This document shows positions 2,600 to 33,676 of a stretch of 64,000 nucleotides of DNA, piece after piece; the first letter of the stretch is position 1, and each line of letters opens with the position of its first letter. The position numbers and the translations under genes were made by a program. The notes under the pieces are model-generated. The model made no database searches and was not told the DNA's origin. It saw nothing but the letters and a program-made list of their open reading frames with translations. The DNA is from Bartonella sp. M0177 (GTDB lineage Bacteria; Pseudomonadota; Alphaproteobacteria; Rhizobiales; Rhizobiaceae): assembly GCF_016102285.1 (NCBI RefSeq), contig NZ_JACFOY010000001.1:1364001-1428000 (forward strand). The letters run 5' to 3'.

Positions 2600-5446
2600 T
2601 TACTTCGCCTGTTTCTTAGTAAGCCACGAGGCTATGATGACCAAAATCGGACCTGCCAGTATCAGCGGAATAAATGAACCGACAAGATCGTGGAACTGGA
2701 GTGCTTTGGCAAAAGTACCACGTGAAATCAGAATAAAATATGTCGTCGGATAGATATCGCCGATCAGTCGCCCAGCTCCTTGAAGGGAGCTCACCGGATC
2801 CATCAATCCGCAAAATTGTGTAGCGGGTAGAATAGTAAGCACCGCAGCGCCAAAAATTGCGGCAATCTGGCTATTCATAAAGGTTGAAATCAACAGTCCG
2901 AAAGCCGTTGAAAACGCCACATAAAGCAATCCCGCCAACATAAATGTCAAAATGCCGCCCGTAAAATGCACTCTGAATATAAAAATAGCGAACAGCCACA
3001 ACAAAATACAATTAATAAGTCCGAGCCCGATATAAGGCAGTTGTTTACCAACCAGAAATTCGAGCCTTGTGACCGGTGTAACGTAAAGATTGATAATGGA
3101 ACCCATTTCCTTTTCACGCACCACGGATAATGCCGCGAGCATGGCCGGAATAATTAAAAGCAAAATCGGTATAACAGCGGGTACCATAGCAGTAAGACTT
3201 TCGATGCCCGGGTTATAGAGGTATCTTACTTCCAGGCGATAATCCCCCATAGTGGCAGCTTTTCCCTGTAGCGTTTTGGCTTTATTTTGAAGCCACAAAG
3301 CGTGCATACCTTGAACGTAACCGCGTACTGTTTCGGCACGCAACGGCATTGCCCCGTCAATCCAGGCGCCGACCTCGACATTGCGTCCCCGTTCCATGTC
3401 TTTTCCAAACTCGGGTGGTATCTCGATAGCGAGACTTATCTCGCCCGAGCGCATACGCGCATCAAGATCGTCATAATCGACAATATCTTTCTTCTGAATA
3501 AAATATCGGGATCCCGAAATCTGCTGGACATAATCGCGACTGATAACCGATTGGTCGTGATCAAGCACCGCAAAAGTCAAATTTTCAACTTCGGTATTGA
3601 TTCCATAACCGATAACGAACATCAAAATGACGCTGCCAAGCAAAGCCATCGTTGCGCGGATAGGATCGCGACGCAATTCCAATGCTTCACGGTTGGCATA
3701 GCTCATCATCCGCATAAAATCGAAACGTCGTTTAAAACGCTTTCCATGAGACCGTTCAATCTCCGGATTTCCATTATTGCCGGATTTTTGTTTGTTAACG
3801 TCCGTTTCTGAAGATTTTTCACTGGCCTCGTTTTTGACAGGCGAAGATGCATCGACTTTGGCTTTTTTCTCGGCATTCTGCTTATCTATAGCATCTTGCA
3901 AATATTCAATAAAAGCTTCCTCAAGTGTATCGGCATTTTTCGATTTCACAATTTCCGAAGGTTTATCGGTAATCAAAACTTTGCCGGCATGCATAAGGGA
4001 AATACGGTCGCAGCGCTCGGCTTCATTCATGAAGTGTGTCGTGATAAAAATGGTAACATTATCATTACGCGACAATTCACCAAGTTGCTGCCACAACTGG
4101 TCACGAGCAATAGGGTCAACACCGGAGGTCGGTTCATCAAGTATAAGAATTTCCGGCTCATGCAGTAACGCAACGGCCAGAGACATACGTTGTCTGATGC
4201 CAAGCGGCAATGAATCCGGCATCGCATCGAGCACATCCTTAAGCTCGAAGCGGTCAATCATTGCCTGCATACGTTCCTTGACTTTTTCCTGCGGAATTTC
4301 AAACAGTTTTGCATGAAGTTGCAGATTTTCGAGAACCGTCAATTCAGCGTAAAGTGAAAACGCCTGACTCATATATCCAACGTGACGACGCGTCTCCATG
4401 TCATTGGCATTGATTTGTCGTCCAAACAATTTGGCGGTGCCTTCTGTCGCAGGAAGAAGTCCCGTCAACATCTTCATTGTCGTGCTTTTGCCGCATCCGT
4501 TAGAGCCGAGGAAACCGAAAATTTCGCCTTTTTTAATACGGAAACTTACATGATCAACCGCAGTGAAATCGCCAAAGCGCTGTGTAAGGCCGTCAGCTTC
4601 TATCGCTATTTCTTCATTTCCGGTTTCTTTACGAGGCGGAATAACAACTTCGACGTGGCCTTTCTGCTCTTCTGCCGGCATGAGAGCTATAAAAGCTTCG
4701 TCAAGGTTTTTGGTCTTTGTCTGTTCAAGCAATTGATCCGGTGTGCCTGTGGCAAGTATCTTGCCGTCATACATAGCAATCAGCCAATCAAATCGCGCAG
4801 CTTCTTCCATATAAGCTGTCGCGACCATAACGCTCATATCGGAGCGTTCTTTGCGAATATCGTCGATCAGGTCCCAAAATTGACGCCTTGAAAGGGGGTC
4901 AACGCCCGTTGTCGGTTCATCAAGAACAAGGAGTTTGGGGTCGTGAATAAGTGAACAAATAAGACCGAGCTTTTGCTTCATGCCCCCCGAAAGCTTTCCG
5001 GCCGGACGGTCTTCGAAACCGTTAAGTCCGGTTCTTTGGCACAATTCGGAAATACGTGCTTGTCGTTCGTCTTTTCCCTGGCCAAAAAGTCGAGCAAAAA
5101 AATCGGCATTTTCTTGAACCGACAAGGTCGGATACAAATTTTTTCCCAAACCTTGAGGCATATAGGCGATATCGGGACACACATCGAGACGGTGCTGTTT
5201 ATCACGCATATCACCGCCCAATACGTTAACAGTGCCGTCCTGAATCTCGCGTGCTCCGGTAATCAGCGACAACAGACTTGACTTGCCGACACCGTCCGGA
5301 CCTATCATGCCGATCATTTTTCCTGTCGGCACTTCAAGATCGATACCGTCTAGCGCGATCTTTTCACCGTAAACCAGACGGACACCCGATAATTTTACAA
5401 CCGGTCTATCTGTTTCGGGCTTTGGGAGTTTGGAAGATTCTGTCAT
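2600..5446 (-). CDS. rbbA: Fused double ABC ATPase / ABC-2 permease (RbbA-like)
   Basis: The 948 residues hold two nucleotide-binding domains and a permease domain. Domain 1 has a Walker A at residues 49-57 (GPDGVGKSS), signature LSGGMKQK at 152-159 and Walker B LVLDEP at 173-178. Domain 2 has Walker A at 314-322 (GSNGCGKST) and Walker B LILDEP, but its signature reads LPLGIRQR instead of LSGGQ, as in E. coli RbbA (YhiH). A charged Lys/Glu/Ser linker near residues 520-570 leads to the C-terminal ABC-2 permease with about six helices and the loop [11 protein letters not shown]. coli RbbA was described as a ribosome-associated ATPase, but the operon here argues for export. It overlaps the adaptor gene by four bases. 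Confidence 0.88.
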
Positions 5447-6516
5447 TGAACTACAGGAGTGCTAACAATCTTCGGCCATTTTGCATTCGGGTCAGTTTTA
5501 ACATAAGCTACGCCGGGTAAGCCTGTTTTGACCTGTTTGATATATTTTTCCAACAAATTTTGAGGAATTTGCGCACGAACACGGAACATAAGTTTTGCGC
5601 GCTCTTCGGCGGTTTCAACTGTTTTCGGAGTAAATTGTGCAACATCCGAAACAAACGAAATATTTGCCGGAATAACATATTGCGGAGCGGCATCCAGTAC
5701 TATTCGCACTTCCGTACCGATTGCAATCTTACCGACCGTCTTGGTAGGCAAAAAGAACGTCATATATACATCGCCAAGATCTACCAGATTAAGCACCCGA
5801 CCTCCGGCGGCCACAACTTCACCGGGCTGAGCAATGCGGTATTGGATTCTCCCCGATCTCGTCGCTTTCAACTCGCTATCATTAATATCGGACTGGATGC
5901 GTTCGATAGTTGCTTTGGCAGCTTCGACAGCCGCCTCGGCATTCACAACATTCGCTTTGGCTGTAGAAACCGCTACTTTAGCTGCAGCAAATTGGGCTTT
6001 TGACGCTGCAACGGCCGCAAGAGCGCCGTCATAGGTTGCCTGATCATCATCTCTAACCTGCGTAGAAACAGTGCCTTTTTGCTGTAACGTAGCCGAACGT
6101 TGGTAACGTCTATTGGAGTTATCGCGCTGTACTTCATTTTGTGCGACTGTCGCCTCGGCGGCCTCTTGCTCGGCTTGGCGCTGTTCGACTTCCATTTTAG
6201 CTGTATCAACATTGATAACTGCCCGTTTCAACTGTGCCTGTGCCTCACGTAACTGCGCCCGCAAGTTTTCGGTATCCATATGGGCAACGACGTCACCAAT
6301 ATTGACAAAATCGCCTTCTCTTACGGTAATATCCTGAATACGCCCGGCAAGCTTCGAGGCAATATCAATTTCAGTAGCCTCTATGCGACCGTTTCCCATA
6401 GCTATACCTTCGGGCAGCCCCGGATGAAGGTAGGTTTTCAAGCCACTATAGACAGCAACTATGGCAATCACAGCGATCGCTATCCAACCCCATTTTGCCT
6501 TACCTTTTGCAGCCAT
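5443..6516 (-). CDS. HlyD-family membrane fusion protein (YhiI/YbhG-like)
   Basis: This is a periplasmic adaptor with one N-terminal helix ([18 protein letters not shown]), a lipoyl/barrel-sandwich start ([20 protein letters not shown]), a long Ala/Gln-rich coiled-coil hairpin around residues 100-205, and a closing half of the barrel ([16 protein letters not shown]). It would link the inner-membrane ABC-2 complex to the outer membrane. It is the first gene of the operon and its stop overlaps the RbbA-like start as ATGA. I prefer the ATG at 6516 over the TTG at 6519; GGAG lies about eight bases upstream of it. The length (357) is usual for the family. Confidence 0.9.
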
Positions 6517-6519
6517 CAA

Positions 6520-7091
6520 ACAGTCTCCATTCTAATTCCGATAAAAAGGAATGCGTTTCTAACCAAATTCGGCGCGTCACATTATCATCCATAGTTGCAT
6601 TTGAAAAGTTACCTTTTATAAAAGAAAAGCCGACGAAACTTTATCGATTAACGGCTAAACAAAAAATAAAAATCGGATTATCCTGTTATTCCGTAGATAG
6701 TCCGTTCACTACTAATCTGTTCTATCAAACAAGAAAACGAATAAAATTTTTCTAATGATCACAATGGCTTCTAAAATGTTGCTACTGACTATTTCATATT
6801 CCTGATTATTCAGCTTTATCTATAGCAGAAATTTTTATTGGCAAATTTTATTGTCAAGAAAATATTAAATCCACTCATTCCATCCCCACTTGGTTATCAG
6901 CCGTATTTATCATGCCTGAGCTCTATTTCGGGTAGGAGTGGCGCGCAATAAAACAACTGCTTTCTAGAGGGTGGGTTTTTACCCCATTTAAAAGCATTTA
7001 TAATGAATTTCTAACAAAAATTAATTTGTACCCCGTCCACCGACTAATACAGGTTTTAATCGGGGTGGGAATAGCGCAATCAGGAAAAGAT
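6520..7091. other. Intergenic region upstream of the HlyD-ABC operon
   Basis: No convincing gene is seen. The part next to 6519 must hold the operon promoter. The remainder is AT-rich except for G- and C-runs at about 6955-7070. These include an inverted repeat with arms ACCCCG (7030-7035) and CGGGGT (7061-7066), and a second G-run/ACCCC block near 6968-6984. Their meaning is unknown. Confidence 0.4.
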
Positions 7092-28203: not shown

Positions 28204-29611
28204 CCTTTGTATATTCAAATCATTGAGTTGTATTATTTTTCAAAGCGAAGTTAAGCGATTTTTACTTTTCGCTATTTTTATTAAACGGTCACAGCCTATC
28301 TTGATGTTTGTCGGACACAAACTTGTCATTCAAATCCATTGAAAACGAACACTTCTTATCGATTTGCGGTAAAGTTTTTCACCATTATGGATGCGAACTC
28401 GGTTAATTTTGCCACACTCAACAGTGGCACCTCGCTCATAACAATTTCATCCAAGACCAACCTTCTGCCTATCTTGTTTCGACAATGCTATCTATCTGGC
28501 ATGAGTCAAACACAACTCCGGAAAAGCCTTTTCGACTACGTGGATCCCATGACAGCGTTGAAAGACTAAATTCTGAAACGACTAGGCGCGCTTGAGCGCG
28601 TAGCTACCGAATTGCTCAGAAAAGCCAACGAGGCAATCACCACGGCTCTTCTTGGCTAATATCAACAAGCCGAAGACAATAGTTCAAGAGGTCATTTGAT
28701 CTACAGATAGGCAAGACTTTCATCTTGGAGCTGCGCGACAAACGTCAAGAGTAGAAAAAGAAGTAATCTGTATTCCAGACTATCATGGTAATTCTTGGCA
28801 ACAAGTCGATTGTCAAGGTAGGTCGCGCCAATGCTATACAATTTTGCAATATTCTTACAGTTACATTCGCATGATGGTCCATCAACTACATTTATACCAT
28901 TAGTACATGTTTTATCATCACATGAGTTATGGCAATTCAGGTGTCTGAAGATAGATGTTATAATTATGATTTCGAATATTATGTTTACGCAAACGCTATG
29001 CGACACGGCTCTCGCCGACGATGCATGACAAGCAACAGCTATTGAACGCTGCATCAGCTGACCGGCTGTAAAACGCCCACTTTCCGATATAACTGAATCG
29101 TTGCCGGTTATCCATATGAATGTCCAAGAAGGCGCCAATTCTTGAAAAAACTAGAAATTATCAACGAAATCCTCCGCAGTTTTCTAAAATCTTGCGCTGA
29201 TCGGCAATCTTCAATGGTTGATGGACAAGTACCAAATCTTTTTCTGCACAATTAATCTGCAAATGCATGTGCAAGCAGTACCTTATCTGAATTCTTATCT
29301 AGACATCACCACAACCGGAAATATCACTGAACAACCTTTGGCAATTCGTAATGCGCTTCGAATATGCAGCACTCGTGTGAACAGTCATTGACATTGAAGA
29401 AAACAAACGCAAAACGGAATGCCATTAACTCTTTCAAATTAGCTGCGTTTTATGGAAATAAAGAAGTTACCCCCATCATCAAACGTTACTTATAGTTGGT
29501 TTAATTCAGGAATGCTGAATTAATTAGCCATGGTGTTATATATGGATATTGCACAAACTCGCGTTCTATGTTCAATTCTCAACATTAGCTGATTCAAAAT
29601 GAAGGCTGGGG
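28204..29611. other. Degraded, probably horizontally acquired region after tRNA-Glu
   Basis: About 1.4 kb without an intact recognisable gene. Several short open stretches are interrupted by stops. One plus-strand frame (about 28411-28589) reads WHLAHNNF...STMLSIWHESNTTPEKPF and ends in TGA. A second frame overlaps it and after its stop continues as LGALERVATELLRKANEAITTA. Both look like pieces of former proteins, but I cannot name the family. Composition shifts from normal at 28560-28640 to very AT-rich nearer the toxin gene. No integrase, attachment repeat or IS end could be found by eye. Confidence 0.45.
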
Positions 29612-29938
29612 ATGGAAATTGCTTTCGCTACTTTTCAATTGCGAGATTTAATTGAATCATCAAAAAAATTGAAAAATTTGTATGGTGACGAATTAGCTAA
29701 TGATTTGATGTCAATTTTTCGTGATTTTGAGGCAGCTGAATCCCTGGATGAAATTATAAAATTTGGATATGAAGCTTTATTTATAGCTGCAGACGAAATT
29801 TTATTAAAGCTTCGTCCAAATTTAAGTGTTCAGTTCAAGATTAATGATCTGATAAATCGGACAAAATCAAATGTTATTCTTGATCCCAGTAAAATTCGAC
29901 ATATTAAAATAACAGGTGTTAATCATGAAAAGCCTTGA
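29612..29938 (+). CDS. Putative RelE/HigB-like toxin of a type II toxin-antitoxin pair
   Basis: This 108-residue protein has the size and pattern of a RelE/HigB-family mRNA interferase variant. It begins with a beta strand (MEIAFAT), has a helical region LRDLIESSKKLKNLYGDELANDLMS and the family-like DFEAAESLDEI, and ends with strands including IRHIKITGVNHE. The usual basic catalytic residues are not obvious, and the middle diverges, so toxicity is unproven. The gene overlaps the antitoxin-peptidase gene by 14 bases, which argues for a functional pair with the toxin first, as in higBA. It is AT-rich and probably acquired. Confidence 0.55.
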   Translation: MEIAFATFQLRDLIESSKKLKNLYGDELANDLMSIFRDFEAAESLDEIIKFGYEALFIAADEILLKLRPNLSVQFKINDLINRTKSNVILDPSKIRHIKITGVNHEKP

Positions 29939-31025
29939 TACTTTTTTGCCAGATTGGGTATCGCCGCCTGGGGCTACCATTCAACGCTTAATGGTTAAAG
30001 CCGGATACGATTATAAAGAATTAGCTAATGAAATAGATATTCCTGATAATGTACTACTAAAAATCATAAGTGGTGACGAAGTTATAACTCAAGATATAGC
30101 ACTTCAATTAAGCAGTTTTTTTGGCTCGACACCTAACTTTTGGCTAAATCGGGAAAAAAAATATAGAGACGAAGTTGTTCGACTGAAGAAAACTCCCAAA
30201 TTGATAGATGAATTAAATTTTTCTTGGGCATCTACATTTCCTATAAATGAAATGAAAAAATTGGGTTGGTTACCGACAACAACCAATACCAAAAATGTCA
30301 TCGAAAAAATGAAATCTTTCTTTAACATAAAATCGGCAAAAGATTGGAATAATAGATATTTAAAATTTAATGCTGTCGCAGCCTTCAGAACCTCGCCCAC
30401 ATATATATCTAATCCTGCAGCTGTGACTGCATGGCTGAGGTGGGCTGAAATAAAAGCAGAAAATGTTGTATGTTCTGACTGGGATGTCGATATTTTGAAA
30501 TCTAATATTCAAAATATGAGGAAACTAACAAGGCGCAAGGATCCAGCGCTATTCATACCTGACTTGAAACGAATTTGTGCAAACTGCGGGATTGTATTGA
30601 CAATCATAAGTGCTCCTAAAGGTTGTAAAGCCAGCGGAGCAACACGATTTTTATCGGAAAAGAAAGCTCAAATTGTACTCAGTATGAGATATAAGTCTGA
30701 CGATCATTTTTGGTTTACTTTTTTTCATGAAATTGGACACTTGATCCTACATAGAGAAACTCCACTTTTTTTAGAAGACAATAGCGATGTATCATCCAAC
30801 GAAGAAATAGAGGCGAATTTATTTTCAGAACAGACTTTAATTCCAGAACGTTTTAAAGATCGGCTTAGAACGGTCAACGTAAAAACGAAGGATATATTAC
30901 GTCTGGCTAGTCAAATAGGCATTTCAAGCGGTATTGTAGTTGGGCAACTTCAACATTCTGGCCGTATCAAAGCCAACCAACTGAATCACCTGAAACGGCG
31001 GTACAAATGGAGTGAATTCCTTTGA
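29925..31025 (+). CDS. HigA-type HTH antitoxin fused to ImmA/IrrE metallopeptidase
   Basis: The first 95 residues form a HigA/XRE helix-turn-helix (FLPDWVSPPGATIQRLM, then ELANEIDIPDNVLLKIISG and STPNFWLNREKKY, the typical HigA end). The C-terminal half is an ImmA/IrrE zincin domain: HEIGH at residues 268-272 supplies two zinc ligands and the Glu-rich segment EEIEANLFSEQTLIP the third. Such fusions can repress their own promoter and cleave a partner. I take the ATG at 29925 (MKSLDTF) over the GTG at 29916. The stop lies three bases from the convergent pyrophosphorylase-like gene. Confidence 0.85.
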   Translation: MKSLDTFLPDWVSPPGATIQRLMVKAGYDYKELANEIDIPDNVLLKIISGDEVITQDIALQLSSFFGSTPNFWLNREKKYRDEVVRLKKTPKLIDELNFSWASTFPINEMKKLGWLPTTTNTKNVIEKMKSFFNIKSAKDWNNRYLKFNAVAAFRTSPTYISNPAAVTAWLRWAEIKAENVVCSDWDVDILKSNIQNMRKLTRRKDPALFIPDLKRICANCGIVLTIISAPKGCKASGATRFLSEKKAQIVLSMRYKSDDHFWFTFFHEIGHLILHRETPLFLEDNSDVSSNEEIEANLFSEQTLIPERFKDRLRTVNVKTKDILRLASQIGISSGIVVGQLQHSGRIKANQLNHLKRRYKWSEFL

Positions 31026-31028
31026 AGT

Positions 31029-31946
31029 TTATCCTCTAAACAAGGTATAGACCTCAGGGCTTTTTTGCCAGTTGCATAATGAATCTTCTAACACTTGCAT
31101 GCCTACATGCAAATGGTCGTCAATTTTTTTTAAACGCTCCTCCAAATTCTTTGGGGAAATTTGTGCGTTTACATCTCCTCCAAATAATAACCTCGCACCG
31201 CGAATTGGACCAGTTGCATTATCCTTCAAATAGGCTGATCCCGGTTCTATAGGAAAAATTCCTAACTTTCCTAACATTGTTAAATAGTCAAACTTAGCCA
31301 GCCTCCCAAATCTCGTGACTTTATTCATATTTTTATAAAGCTGATCAAAAACTTCCCGCGGATTTTGTCCAACCTGCCTATGAATATCACGGATCATATT
31401 ATCATGTCCGCCACACGACTGCACCCAATTAACATAGCTCGCCAGCACTTTTACCGTATCTTTTAGGCTCTCATATTTACGATGATTACTAAACCTTTCA
31501 TTATCAAAATGACGAATATTATCATTGAACCAATTACTAAAAGCCTTAAGATCGCCTTTAATAGAATTCCAACACCAATGGTCGGACGAACCTAACTTCC
31601 CATATATCTTTCGGACTAGACGCCACTTGTTTTTTGAATGTTTTCCAAAGTGCACAGCTAGGAAAACTAACCAGCAAGCTTCATCTATATTCCCCTGCCT
31701 CGTCATCAGAACTGCAGCTTTCAAGGGATCGAATAATTCCGATGACGGTTCCATTCTCTCATGAACAATTTTTGCATTTGTCAAATACTTCACATACTTG
31801 ACTCTTCTGATGCTATCATTAATTTGTCTTGACAATACCTCTATTTTTGTTTCAGAGTCTAAGCCAACAAGTTTGAATATTTTTTCAGAAAAACAATTTA
31901 AACTTTTTTTTATCTCTTGAACTTGTTCCAGTTTATTTTTCGACAT
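31029..31946 (-). CDS. Putative alpha-glutamyl/putrescinyl thymine pyrophosphorylase, clade 3-like
   Basis: The 305-residue, mostly helical protein resembles a family predicted by comparative genomics to act in DNA base hypermodification, built on a helix-hairpin-helix glycosylase-like fold. Recognisable blocks are DEACWLVFLAVHFGKH (88-103), SNHRKYES (153-160), RFGRLAKFDYLTMLGKLG (212-229), TGPIRGARLLFGG (245-257) and MQVLEDSLCNWQKSP (283-297). The match is from memory of the family pattern, so the name is tentative. It follows the thymidylate-synthase homologue on the same strand after a 41-base gap, the partner expected of a base-modification system. No signal peptide or membrane segment is present, so it is cytoplasmic. 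Confidence 0.55.
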   Translation of the reverse strand: MSKNKLEQVQEIKKSLNCFSEKIFKLVGLDSETKIEVLSRQINDSIRRVKYVKYLTNAKIVHERMEPSSELFDPLKAAVLMTRQGNIDEACWLVFLAVHFGKHSKNKWRLVRKIYGKLGSSDHWCWNSIKGDLKAFSNWFNDNIRHFDNERFSNHRKYESLKDTVKVLASYVNWVQSCGGHDNMIRDIHRQVGQNPREVFDQLYKNMNKVTRFGRLAKFDYLTMLGKLGIFPIEPGSAYLKDNATGPIRGARLLFGGDVNAQISPKNLEERLKKIDDHLHVGMQVLEDSLCNWQKSPEVYTLFRG

Positions 31947-31987
31947 ATCAGCGCCTTATTTTGTTGGAAAAATATATTTTTATTTAT

Positions 31988-32974
31988 TTATTTCATCTTT
32001 TCTCTTATATACTCATCGTAAAATTCTGTACTCAAGCTTTTCTTAGCTAAATTACTTGCTTCCGTGTCCTCTTTGTCTTGCAATTTTTTTATAAGTAATA
32101 TCAAAGCAATATCTTGCCAATAAGGCGTTACATGTGAATTCTTCGGCAGAAATGTTTCACCCAACCTTATTTTTTTTTCAGTTTCTAAAAGCCATTTCAT
32201 TGGTTTGCGTGGATCGCCATTCGGCATTGGCGGCATTGCGGTTTTTCTCTGTACTCCAAGATCAATGTATTTTTTAGCTTCTTTAATTTTATTCTCGTAA
32301 ATATGTAAACTTCCAACAAAATGATAGTATTCACCTAGTTTCATTGCTAAACACGTCGCTACGTATTCTTGAAGAAACGTAAAAGCAAATATATCATGAG
32401 GGAGACCAATATATGCATCATTTGAGCGCATTGATACGACCATATTTAGTCTATTATTCCGGCATAAAAACTGTATTGTGCACGTACACGGTACATCGAC
32501 AATTTTTTTCCCTATATCTTTTTTTTCGCTTCTTAACTCTTTTATTATTTTCGTTAAATCTGATTTATCAAAAATTTGAATGACTGCTTGCCGTGAACTT
32601 TTTTTCTCTTTTAATATTGTAATTACTTTTTTAACCTGTCCTCCTGAACCAAATAGTTTAGGACCATAAGCACCCCTTACTGTTACGGCATTTTCTGGCA
32701 AACCCGACGTTTCTCTATAGCGTGGGATATAATATTTAATAAAGGCCAAGTCATTCCGTCCTGAAAAATACCATAGTGTTTCACCCAGGCTGCTGTATAA
32801 AATCTTCCTTATCTCTGCCCGACACAAACGAGCTCTCGGATTTTTAAGTTTTAAGAGAACTCCCGTAAGCTCCCTGTTACGCCCTTTAGTTGATTCCACA
32901 ACATTTTGGCTCTTAATTATTTTTGGATACAGTTTAAACAGTATATCATCAATTGTTTCACCTGAAATATACAT
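31988..32974 (-). CDS. Thymidylate synthase homologue, predicted pyrimidine nucleotide hydroxymethylase
   Basis: The fold is clearly that of thymidylate synthase. Counting from the ATG at 32974, the nucleophile is Cys163 in DVPCTCTIQF, the phosphate and base-binding block is MRSNDAYIGLPHDIF (Arg183, Ser184, Asp186), and VGSLHIYEN gives His224 and Tyr226. Glu65-Thr-Leu-Trp matches the catalytic Glu region. Position 194 is Asp where dUMP enzymes have Asn; cytidylate hydroxymethylases carry Asp there. The frame is open to 33088, but the extra N-terminus is hydrophobic and unlike the family; ATG 32986 is an alternative. ThyA or ThyX for normal dTMP synthesis would lie elsewhere. Confidence 0.85.
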   Translation of the reverse strand: MYISGETIDDILFKLYPKIIKSQNVVESTKGRNRELTGVLLKLKNPRARLCRAEIRKILYSSLGETLWYFSGRNDLAFIKYYIPRYRETSGLPENAVTVRGAYGPKLFGSGGQVKKVITILKEKKSSRQAVIQIFDKSDLTKIIKELRSEKKDIGKKIVDVPCTCTIQFLCRNNRLNMVVSMRSNDAYIGLPHDIFAFTFLQEYVATCLAMKLGEYYHFVGSLHIYENKIKEAKKYIDLGVQRKTAMPPMPNGDPRKPMKWLLETEKKIRLGETFLPKNSHVTPYWQDIALILLIKKLQDKEDTEASNLAKKSLSTEFYDEYIREKMK

Positions 32975-33106
32975 GAAATTAAACATCTCCGAATCATCTA
33001 AACCGAATAAGTAAACATAGTCGAAAAATGCATAAAAAACATAGATAAACAGATTAATAATATGATGTAATACAAGCGAACCTACCATAGTTTAATATTA
33101 CTCGTT

Positions 33107-33676
33107 TCTGCAGAACAGATTTTCGAATTTTATAAAACTGTCTCGGATGCCATATCCATTCCGATTATGATATAGGATGCGCCGATGAGCGGAACTTTCC
33201 TTTCGGTTCCGCTTCTGGTGCAAATGGCAAAAAAACTTGAAAATATATCCTATTTCAAAATCGAAACGCCACAAGCAGCCAATAAATTGCGTCAGTTAAT
33301 TGCAGAAGGTGGGAAGTACATCGAAGGACCCTTTGATGGCGAAGAAGGAATCACTCTTCTTTCCGATCTTAGAGCCGGTGCAAAAGGAGCTATGACGGGT
33401 GGCGGCTATGTTGATGGCATAAGACAGATATTCGATCCCTTTATGGAAGGAAATCTTGAAGAAGCAAAAAACGCTTATATGCGTTGGTTACCGCTTATAA
33501 ATCTCGAGAACCGCCAAGGAAGTTTCGCAACTGCAAAAATACTGATGAAAGAAGGTGGAATAATCCATCATGATGGCTTGCGGGCCCCCTTACCTTCGGT
33601 CTCTACAGAAATTCGCTCCGAAATATTGGAAATGGCAAAACAGCTTGATGTTTTAGCTCTCCGTTGGGCGCGTTAA
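33107..33676 (+). pseudogene. Truncated DapA-family (dihydrodipicolinate synthase-like) dehydratase
   Basis: The frame encodes only the C-terminal part of a DHDPS/N-acetylneuraminate lyase-family protein: AEQIFEFYKTVSDAISIPIMI, a TAG at 33173-33175, then DAPMSGTFLSVPLLVQMA, FKIETPQAANKLRQ (with the Schiff-base Lys in YFKIE), and the C-terminal helices. The family is about 300 residues; roughly the first 110-120 are absent, and the TAG sits where a Gln or similar codon is expected. The remaining frame could restart at ATG 33185 (163 residues) but would lack half of the barrel. Together with the aldehyde dehydrogenase downstream it was probably a 2-keto-3-deoxy-sugar acid dehydratase. The island boundary cuts it. 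Confidence 0.85.

Follow-up and report, generated by a model that had tools for sequence, protein, structure and literature searches.

A mobile four-gene cassette in Bartonella that joins a predicted cytosine hydroxymethylation pair to toxin–antitoxin-like genes

A stretch of 64,000 nucleotides from Bartonella sp. M0177 (assembly GCF_016102285.1, contig NZ_JACFOY010000001.1, positions 1,364,001 to 1,428,000), called the window here, carries a compact set of four genes that recurs in bacterial genomes, on plasmids and on predicted viral contigs. These genes encode a homologue of thymidylate synthase (TS), a 305-residue protein of the aGPT-Pplase3/ADDT family (PP), a fusion of a HigA-type helix-turn-helix (HTH) domain with an ImmA domain (IMM), and a small HigB-like protein (SM). 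Family membership, residue signatures, conserved architecture, association with a single branch of the IMM tree and mobility are all demonstrated below, while the enzymatic and defence activities are predictions. The chances appear about even that the set is a mobile conflict cassette, serving defence or addiction, in which a modified cytosine nucleotide would stand under toxin–antitoxin-like control. It may be described as a switch resembling PD-lambda-2 combined with a pair of enzymes predicted to hydroxymethylate cytosine.

A preliminary description of this DNA had reported two minus-strand open reading frames, those of TS and PP, 41 bases apart, and had taken them for a candidate two-gene system, either minimal or with outside partners. 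The coordinates of the reading frames agree, the gap spanning positions 31947-31987, and every quoted motif is present. A minimal system is not supported, as two further conserved genes, SM and IMM, had been overlooked and complete the cassette (Table 1). The 3′ end of IMM lies only 3 bases from that of PP, the genes being convergent, and the first 23 bases of IMM are shared with SM. The TS reading frame is open upstream to 33088 (31988-33088), and its extension beyond 32974 is probably untranslated. The 328-residue start given earlier is very likely correct, because the TS homologue of another genome of the genus (G404) begins exactly at the Met corresponding to 32974.

Table 1. Features of the cassette and its surroundings in the window
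Feature	Position	Strand	Basis
TS-fold pyrimidine hydroxymethylase, predicted substrate dCMP (TS), 328 residues	31988..32974	-	Pfam, PDB match, residues, same-genus start
aGPT-Pplase clade 3 / ADDT family protein (PP), 305 residues	31029..31946	-	PF18746, PF18724
Fusion of HigA-type HTH and ImmA/IrrE (M78) zinc protease domain (IMM), 369 residues	29916..31025	+	Peptidase_M78, PADLOC; convergent with TS-PP
Small HigB-like protein (SM), 108 residues	29612..29938	+	Profile-profile match to HigB alignment
Perfect 9-base inverted repeat with 5-base spacer upstream of SM; possible operator	29501..29523		Inverted-repeat search
Low-GC segment holding the cassette, beside a tRNA gene	28209..33093		Does not align to G417, a genome of the genus
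Segment absent from genome G819 (labelled same species)	29658..33378		Genome comparison
tRNA-Glu (ttc), left edge of the low-GC segment	28129..28203	+	tRNA gene
163-residue remnant of a DHDPS-family gene	33185..33676	+	310 residues in G417; covers Pfam DHDPS profile 184-288 of 289 only

The enzyme pair: a predicted hydroxymethylase and an aGPT-Pplase3 family protein

The TS protein matches Pfam Thymidylat_synt (E 9.9e-20) and eight NCBIfam thymidylate synthase models, every one of these eight below its curated cut-off. Its best sequence match in the PDB is MilA, a cytidine monophosphate (CMP) 5-hydroxymethylase, at 2.3e-35, and the best thymidylate synthase follows at 1.9e-11. An alignment of 28 TS sequences, including that of the window and some close relatives of each other (for example L028 and L037), shows an invariant catalytic Cys, Glu, Ser and Asp of the RSND motif, Asp at the substrate position (that of N177 in E. 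coli TS), His and Tyr. The equivalent of Arg126 is Arg in 27 of these sequences and Lys in L031, and the equivalent of Ser167 is Ser in all 28; in other words, the cassette enzymes carry Arg/Ser and not the MilA-type Lys133/Ala176. Passages of the MilA study (PMC5175136) indicate that Asp at the substrate position accompanies cytosine substrates, that Arg and Ser occur in deoxynucleotide enzymes, and that the A176S/K133R change shifts MilA from CMP to deoxycytidine monophosphate (dCMP). Passages of work on the T4 dCMP hydroxymethylase (PMC6400193) and of the MetaGPA study (PMC8670742) agree on Asp for cytosine.

Since this Asp is present in 28 of 28 homologues, a cytosine substrate is predicted, and there is good support for regarding TS as a predicted dCMP hydroxymethylase that would give 5-hydroxymethyl-dCMP. 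The hydroxymethylase character proposed earlier is supported, whereas a thymine-type base is not: the modified base is more probably cytosine. An ordinary thymidylate synthase, gained by transfer and lying beside an unrelated gene, would fit the annotation of the gene as thymidylate synthase in six plasmid records. This explanation is extremely improbable, as the substrate position holds Asp and not Asn throughout the alignment, the PDB comparison places a hydroxymethylase far ahead, the host genome already encodes a separate, typical ThyA (E 9.6e-128), and TS co-occurs with PP.

MilA being the nearest solved relative, the TS–PP pair could also act as the initial steps towards mildiomycin or bacimethrin do, and yield a nucleoside antimetabolite. 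In the plasmid search for TS, the four next-best matches examined do lie in clusters that resemble biosynthetic ones, with genes for nucleoside deoxyribosyltransferase, P450, QueA-like proteins or transporters. Two of them, from Streptococcus salivarius and from a Geobacillus plasmid (its second TS), lie outside the cassette and share its Arg/Ser and Asp, so the Arg/Ser signature is not unique to the cassette. The other two, on Streptomyces and Priestia plasmids and beside nucleoside deoxyribosyltransferase genes, have Lys/Ala like MilA. Moreover, six TS proteins from outside the cassette form a group of their own (0.967) in a quick unrooted tree, and the conserved genes of the cassette include none for a deoxyribosyltransferase, a transporter or tailoring. 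Such a small-molecule pathway is therefore considered quite improbable. As an observation in its own right, the S. salivarius and Geobacillus plasmids (L124 and L125) have hydroxymethylase-type TS genes clustered with genes for a QueA homologue, PqqD, CYTH and ABC transporters, and each encodes a second TS-like protein; these clusters are possibly an undescribed modified-nucleoside pathway.

The second protein of the pair, PP, matches PF18746 (aGPT-Pplase3) at E 7.2e-104, above the curated cut-off, with residues 35-305 aligned to positions 3-279 of the 279-position profile. It also matches PF18724 (ADDT) at E 3.7e-80, which confirms its earlier placement in the pyrophosphorylase family. Among 19 aligned PP sequences, 34 residues are invariant. 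No significant relative of PP was found in the PDB. Its family gives a weak indication of its possible chemistry, which is taken up with the proposed mechanism below.

Conservation of the cassette and its dependence on the SM–IMM pair

Relatives of PP were gathered from 19 bacterial-genome loci, 8 plasmid records, 25 viral-contig loci (one already found otherwise) and 4 genomes besides the window's own. The final count is 55 PP loci outside the window, corresponding to 47 groups at 90% PP identity. TS adjoins PP in 52 of the 53 loci with room for it (44 of 45 groups), and a convergent IMM gene accompanies PP in 52 of 54 (44 of 46 groups). Because the comparison covers so many loci and groups outside the window, the adjacency of TS and PP is not a chance observation. 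A family match of PP and its conserved pairing with TS had been named beforehand as the two findings on which the preliminary idea depended; both were looked for and found, and the idea survived.

The upstream position of SM is likewise maintained: in 26 of 28 loci, IMM is immediately preceded by an open reading frame of 50-200 residues. L015 has only a 54-residue fragment at a contig end, L037 has no room, and the upstream reading frame of L020 is longer. The eight plasmids with PP are the same as the eight best plasmids for TS; plasmid H6, nearly identical to H5, is represented through its TS in the plasmid search and does not belong to the fetched loci. Records with the cassette are labelled Pseudomonadota, Acidobacteriota, Chloroflexota, Actinomycetota and Spirochaetota, those of Acidobacteriota and Chloroflexota being metagenome-assembled. 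The distance matrices of the four proteins correlate, with r 0.68-0.85 (24 loci, after seven fragments, near copies or incomplete ones were dropped).

Two accessory genes recur among the 55 loci. One, for a 270-residue protein with highly conserved motifs, is found in the cassette operon in 11 loci (L007, L008, L009, L011, L012, L014, L128, L139-L141 and L143), and the other, for a DUF4031 protein, in seven (L005, L007, L009, L012 and L141-L143). The 270-residue protein gave no Pfam match in the four members scanned. Its membership of the UDG family was considered and found unsupported, the hhalign score being 16.5 against a maximum of 20.1 in 30 shuffles, and we take its motifs to be glycosylase-like in appearance only.

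The two plus-strand genes resemble a known kind of switch. IMM matches Peptidase_M78 (7.2e-10) and the PADLOC models PD-Lambda-2_B (3.5e-27) and capP (3.8e-10); its profile matches HigA structures (7.3e-11) and CapP (0.0038), and the HExxH residues are invariant in 18 aligned IMM sequences. SM has no Pfam match above the curated cut-off and, in the 15 members scanned, no PADLOC match, whereas its profile scored 29.1 against a HigB alignment (hhalign), the best of 60 column shuffles reaching 16.0. PD-lambda-2, as passages of its description (PMC9519451) present it, is a three-part abortive defence system of E. coli with HigB-like and HTH-peptidase parts, in which the HTH-peptidase is toxic, the HigB-like part neutralises it, and a third part is needed for defence. 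The place of this third part (C), directly after IMM, is not filled in the cassette, because in all but two of the loci with room IMM is followed by PP in convergent orientation. With moderate support, SM–IMM may be regarded as a toxin–antitoxin-like control with a role in phage conflict or addiction. As to the sequence upstream of SM, the search that gave the inverted repeat found none upstream of TS. RNA structure upstream of SM gave nothing (z -0.54), and a promoter scan of the region returned 5 sites against a shuffled mean of 15.8.

The history of the association can be read from IMM proteins found outside the cassette. Scanning viral contigs with IMM yielded 67 loci, of which 56 were examined; 23 of these have PP and 33 do not. 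The small upstream reading frame, of 94-120 residues, is kept in 30 of the 33 lone loci, and no effector gene common to the 33 was found. The lone status of three of them (L174, L193 and L211) is unsure because fewer than 400 bases follow IMM. None of 10 proteins encoded next to further lone IMM genes matched a PADLOC model. In a midpoint-rooted tree of 76 IMM proteins, the 41 from TS–PP loci fall on one side of a single branch (100/98) and the 35 lone ones on the other, so that the association with TS–PP needs 1 change, compared with 25.4 in shuffles. Because of this split and of the lone SM–IMM pairs, it may be suggested that, within the present sample, the two pairs came together a single time and that TS–PP depends on SM–IMM, not the reverse.

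Separately, the lone viral loci (L174-L213) represent a widespread two-gene unit in predicted viral contigs, toxin–antitoxin-like and composed of a HigB-like and an HTH-ImmA protein. An apparent combination of SM–IMM with ThyX in L094 was set aside, as this ThyX is probably a housekeeping gene, given that G687 has a single ThyX.

A plain toxin–antitoxin or addiction module, in which SM–IMM is the working unit and TS–PP a toxin or a passenger, would account for the resemblance to HigBA-ImmA and to PD-lambda-2 A-B, for the SM–IMM pairs that exist without TS–PP, and for the presence/absence polymorphism described below. Yet retention in 52 of 53 loci, and restriction to one side of a single branch in the tree of IMM proteins, would be hard to explain for a passenger, and the TS residues listed above are retained. 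A module of this kind is thus judged improbable.

Genomic setting and mobility

The cassette is patchy and mobile. It lies in a segment with a G+C content of 36.4%, compared with 44.2% for the whole window, and G417 has 7.2 kb of other DNA and genes between the same flanks. As a genome labelled as the same species lacks it, the cassette is polymorphic within one species. The PP family occurs in 4 of 398 genomes of the phylum, the window's own included, of which three have the cassette and one (G074) does not, and in 2 of 61 relatives, again including its own. Between the tRNA-Glu gene and the cassette there is a region of 1.4 kb without a convincing gene (28204-29611), present in 3 of 61 same-genus genomes, its own included; it has no match in the phage or plasmid collections.

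Within the genus, the genes of the cassette have not behaved alike. In 250-base windows compared with G404, SM, IMM and PP are 98-100% identical, most flanking sequence is 90-97% identical, and most of TS is 74-84% identical. The two same-genus TS alleles differ with dN 0.18 and dS 0.62. Because of this divergence next to nearly identical SM, IMM and PP, it seems that TS alone was exchanged, by allele replacement. Positive selection on TS was considered and rejected, as these dN and dS values point to allele replacement and not to diversifying selection. In this comparison, in which positions 31900-32900 stand against L036, TS is the only highly divergent cassette gene between two species of the genus.

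Among the neighbouring genes, 120 of 177 scanned, there are single matches to type I restriction, Lamassu and Bil systems and a few to Mrr, resolvase and integrase families, as judged from the top 25 of 135 PADLOC and of 128 Pfam families. Six PADLOC 'mad3' matches (6/120) were discounted, since they equal in number the Pfam ABC_tran matches (6/120) and may be cross-matches. On viral contigs, genes for integrases, replication proteins and methyltransferases lie nearby, as judged from the top 25 of 138 families in a scan of 65 of the 79 neighbours. Two individual loci may be mentioned: in L010, a protein with an Mrr_cat domain is encoded about 110 bases upstream of TS (6064-6777), and in L028, an annotated restriction endonuclease lies near TS on the opposite strand (3384-4265).

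Proposed function and comparison with known systems

In the proposed mechanism, the TS-fold enzyme would convert dCMP and methylene-tetrahydrofolate into 5-hydroxymethyl-dCMP, a step to which the residue signatures strongly point. PP, judged from its family, may then act on the hydroxymethylated cytosine, either as a free nucleotide or in DNA, and could replace or extend the hydroxyl with an amino acid or an amine. By homology, SM and IMM would form a PD-lambda-2-type switch that holds TS–PP silent or harmless and that, on infection, would release the pair or its own toxicity. The outcome would be anti-phage or addictive, with the modified cytosine poisoning the nucleotide pool or new DNA, or acting as a signal; the favoured picture is a poison or signal derived from dCMP and linked to infection. 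A more specific form of this proposal, which is offered tentatively and is less than evenly probable, describes a new class of bacterial immune or addiction system in which a self-made, hydroxymethylated and amino-tailored deoxycytidine nucleotide would serve as an infection-triggered poison or alarm under a dedicated HigB / HigA-ImmA switch, inherited together with the enzyme pair ever since their joining. Its substrate might be, for example, dCMP freed as an infecting phage breaks down the DNA of its host.

The role mainly known for modified pyrimidines is that of protecting phages from restriction. As happens in phages, the pair could instead put a hypermodified cytosine into the DNA of its carrier plasmid, prophage or host, with SM–IMM as regulator or addiction partner. 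The dCMP hydroxymethylase signature, as in T4, and carriage by plasmids and predicted viral contigs speak for such self-modification (anti-restriction), as does the existence in phages of dCMP hydroxymethylases paired with tailoring transferases, of which passages of one study (PMC8670742) give the 5-hydroxymethylcytosine (5hmC) carbamoyltransferase as an example. However, a search of 50,697 phage records at E 1e-5 found nothing that matches PP, the conserved genes include neither a nucleotide kinase nor a dCTPase or polymerase, and the constant partner is toxin–antitoxin-like, not replicative. Self-modification is, on balance, an unlikely explanation of the cassette.

Several observations weigh against a conflict cassette built around a modified nucleotide. 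An activated (pyrophosphorylated) base is said to be required where phages use aGPT-Pplases, and no kinase occurs among the four conserved or two recurrent accessory genes; for other neighbours, this covers the top 25 of 128 Pfam families, the search being confined to the loci and not extended elsewhere in the genomes. A DNA-glycosylase fold for PP was tried and is unsupported (hhalign 15.7 against a maximum of 19.5 in 30 shuffles). PADLOC has no match for TS, PP or SM, and defence-gene enrichment is not demonstrated because the neighbouring defence genes were tallied without a control region. No operator shared by the sequences upstream of TS and SM was found at the sensitivity of the comparison, the longest exact match averaging 8.3 bases within a locus and 8.2 between mismatched loci (25 loci). 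Individual loci also depart from the pattern: L035, whose PP relative has 34% identity, is without TS and IMM; L019 has TS and PP with a carbamoyl-phosphate synthase gene in the place of IMM; and L193, counted as a lone IMM locus, has a partial TS match nearby.

If the conflict cassette proposed here is real, modified deoxycytidine would be a weapon or signal that bacteria, too, employ in their conflicts. Additionally, the four-gene unit is small enough for cloning, which lets the functions of a clade 3 aGPT-Pplase and of an HTH-ImmA fusion be tested. Among the open-licence papers listed by full-text searches, none is listed as describing the four-gene set; it may be mentioned by Iyer et al. 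2013 or by Burroughs et al. 2015.

Iyer et al. 2013 and later work reportedly describe phage thymidine hypermodification pathways with aGPT-Pplase / ADDT transferases. The cassette resembles these in combining a TS-fold hydroxymethylase with an aGPT-Pplase/ADDT-family protein, but differs by its cytosine instead of uracil signature, by the lack of a conserved kinase, and by a bacterial mobile setting with toxin–antitoxin-like genes. With MilA of the mildiomycin pathway, as covered in passages of PMC5175136, TS shares the cytosine-specifying Asp, whereas MilA has Lys133/Ala176 in place of the deoxynucleotide-type Arg/Ser. The T4 dCMP hydroxymethylase and the 5hmC carbamoyltransferase pair, as far as the passages of PMC6400193 and PMC8670742 describe them, share with the cassette the first reaction, as predicted for TS, and the tailoring enzyme that comes after it; the cassette differs in the family of that enzyme and in its bacterial, toxin–antitoxin-linked context.

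Closest on the side of the switch is PD-lambda-2, which, according to the passages of PMC9519451, has apparently the same succession of a HigB-like small protein and a HigA-HTH fused to a peptidase domain. The cassette departs from it in having no third gene after IMM but a convergent pair of hydroxymethylase and aGPT-Pplase3, and in an SM protein without a PADLOC match. On the side of the enzymes, passages of the DefensePredictor study (PMC13092281) already list aGPT-Pplase among predicted, unvalidated defence domains and report validated systems with a thymidylate synthase domain and a 5-hydroxymethyluracil kinase domain. The aGPT-Pplase is common to that study and to the cassette; convergent HTH-ImmA and HigB-like partners do not appear in those passages.

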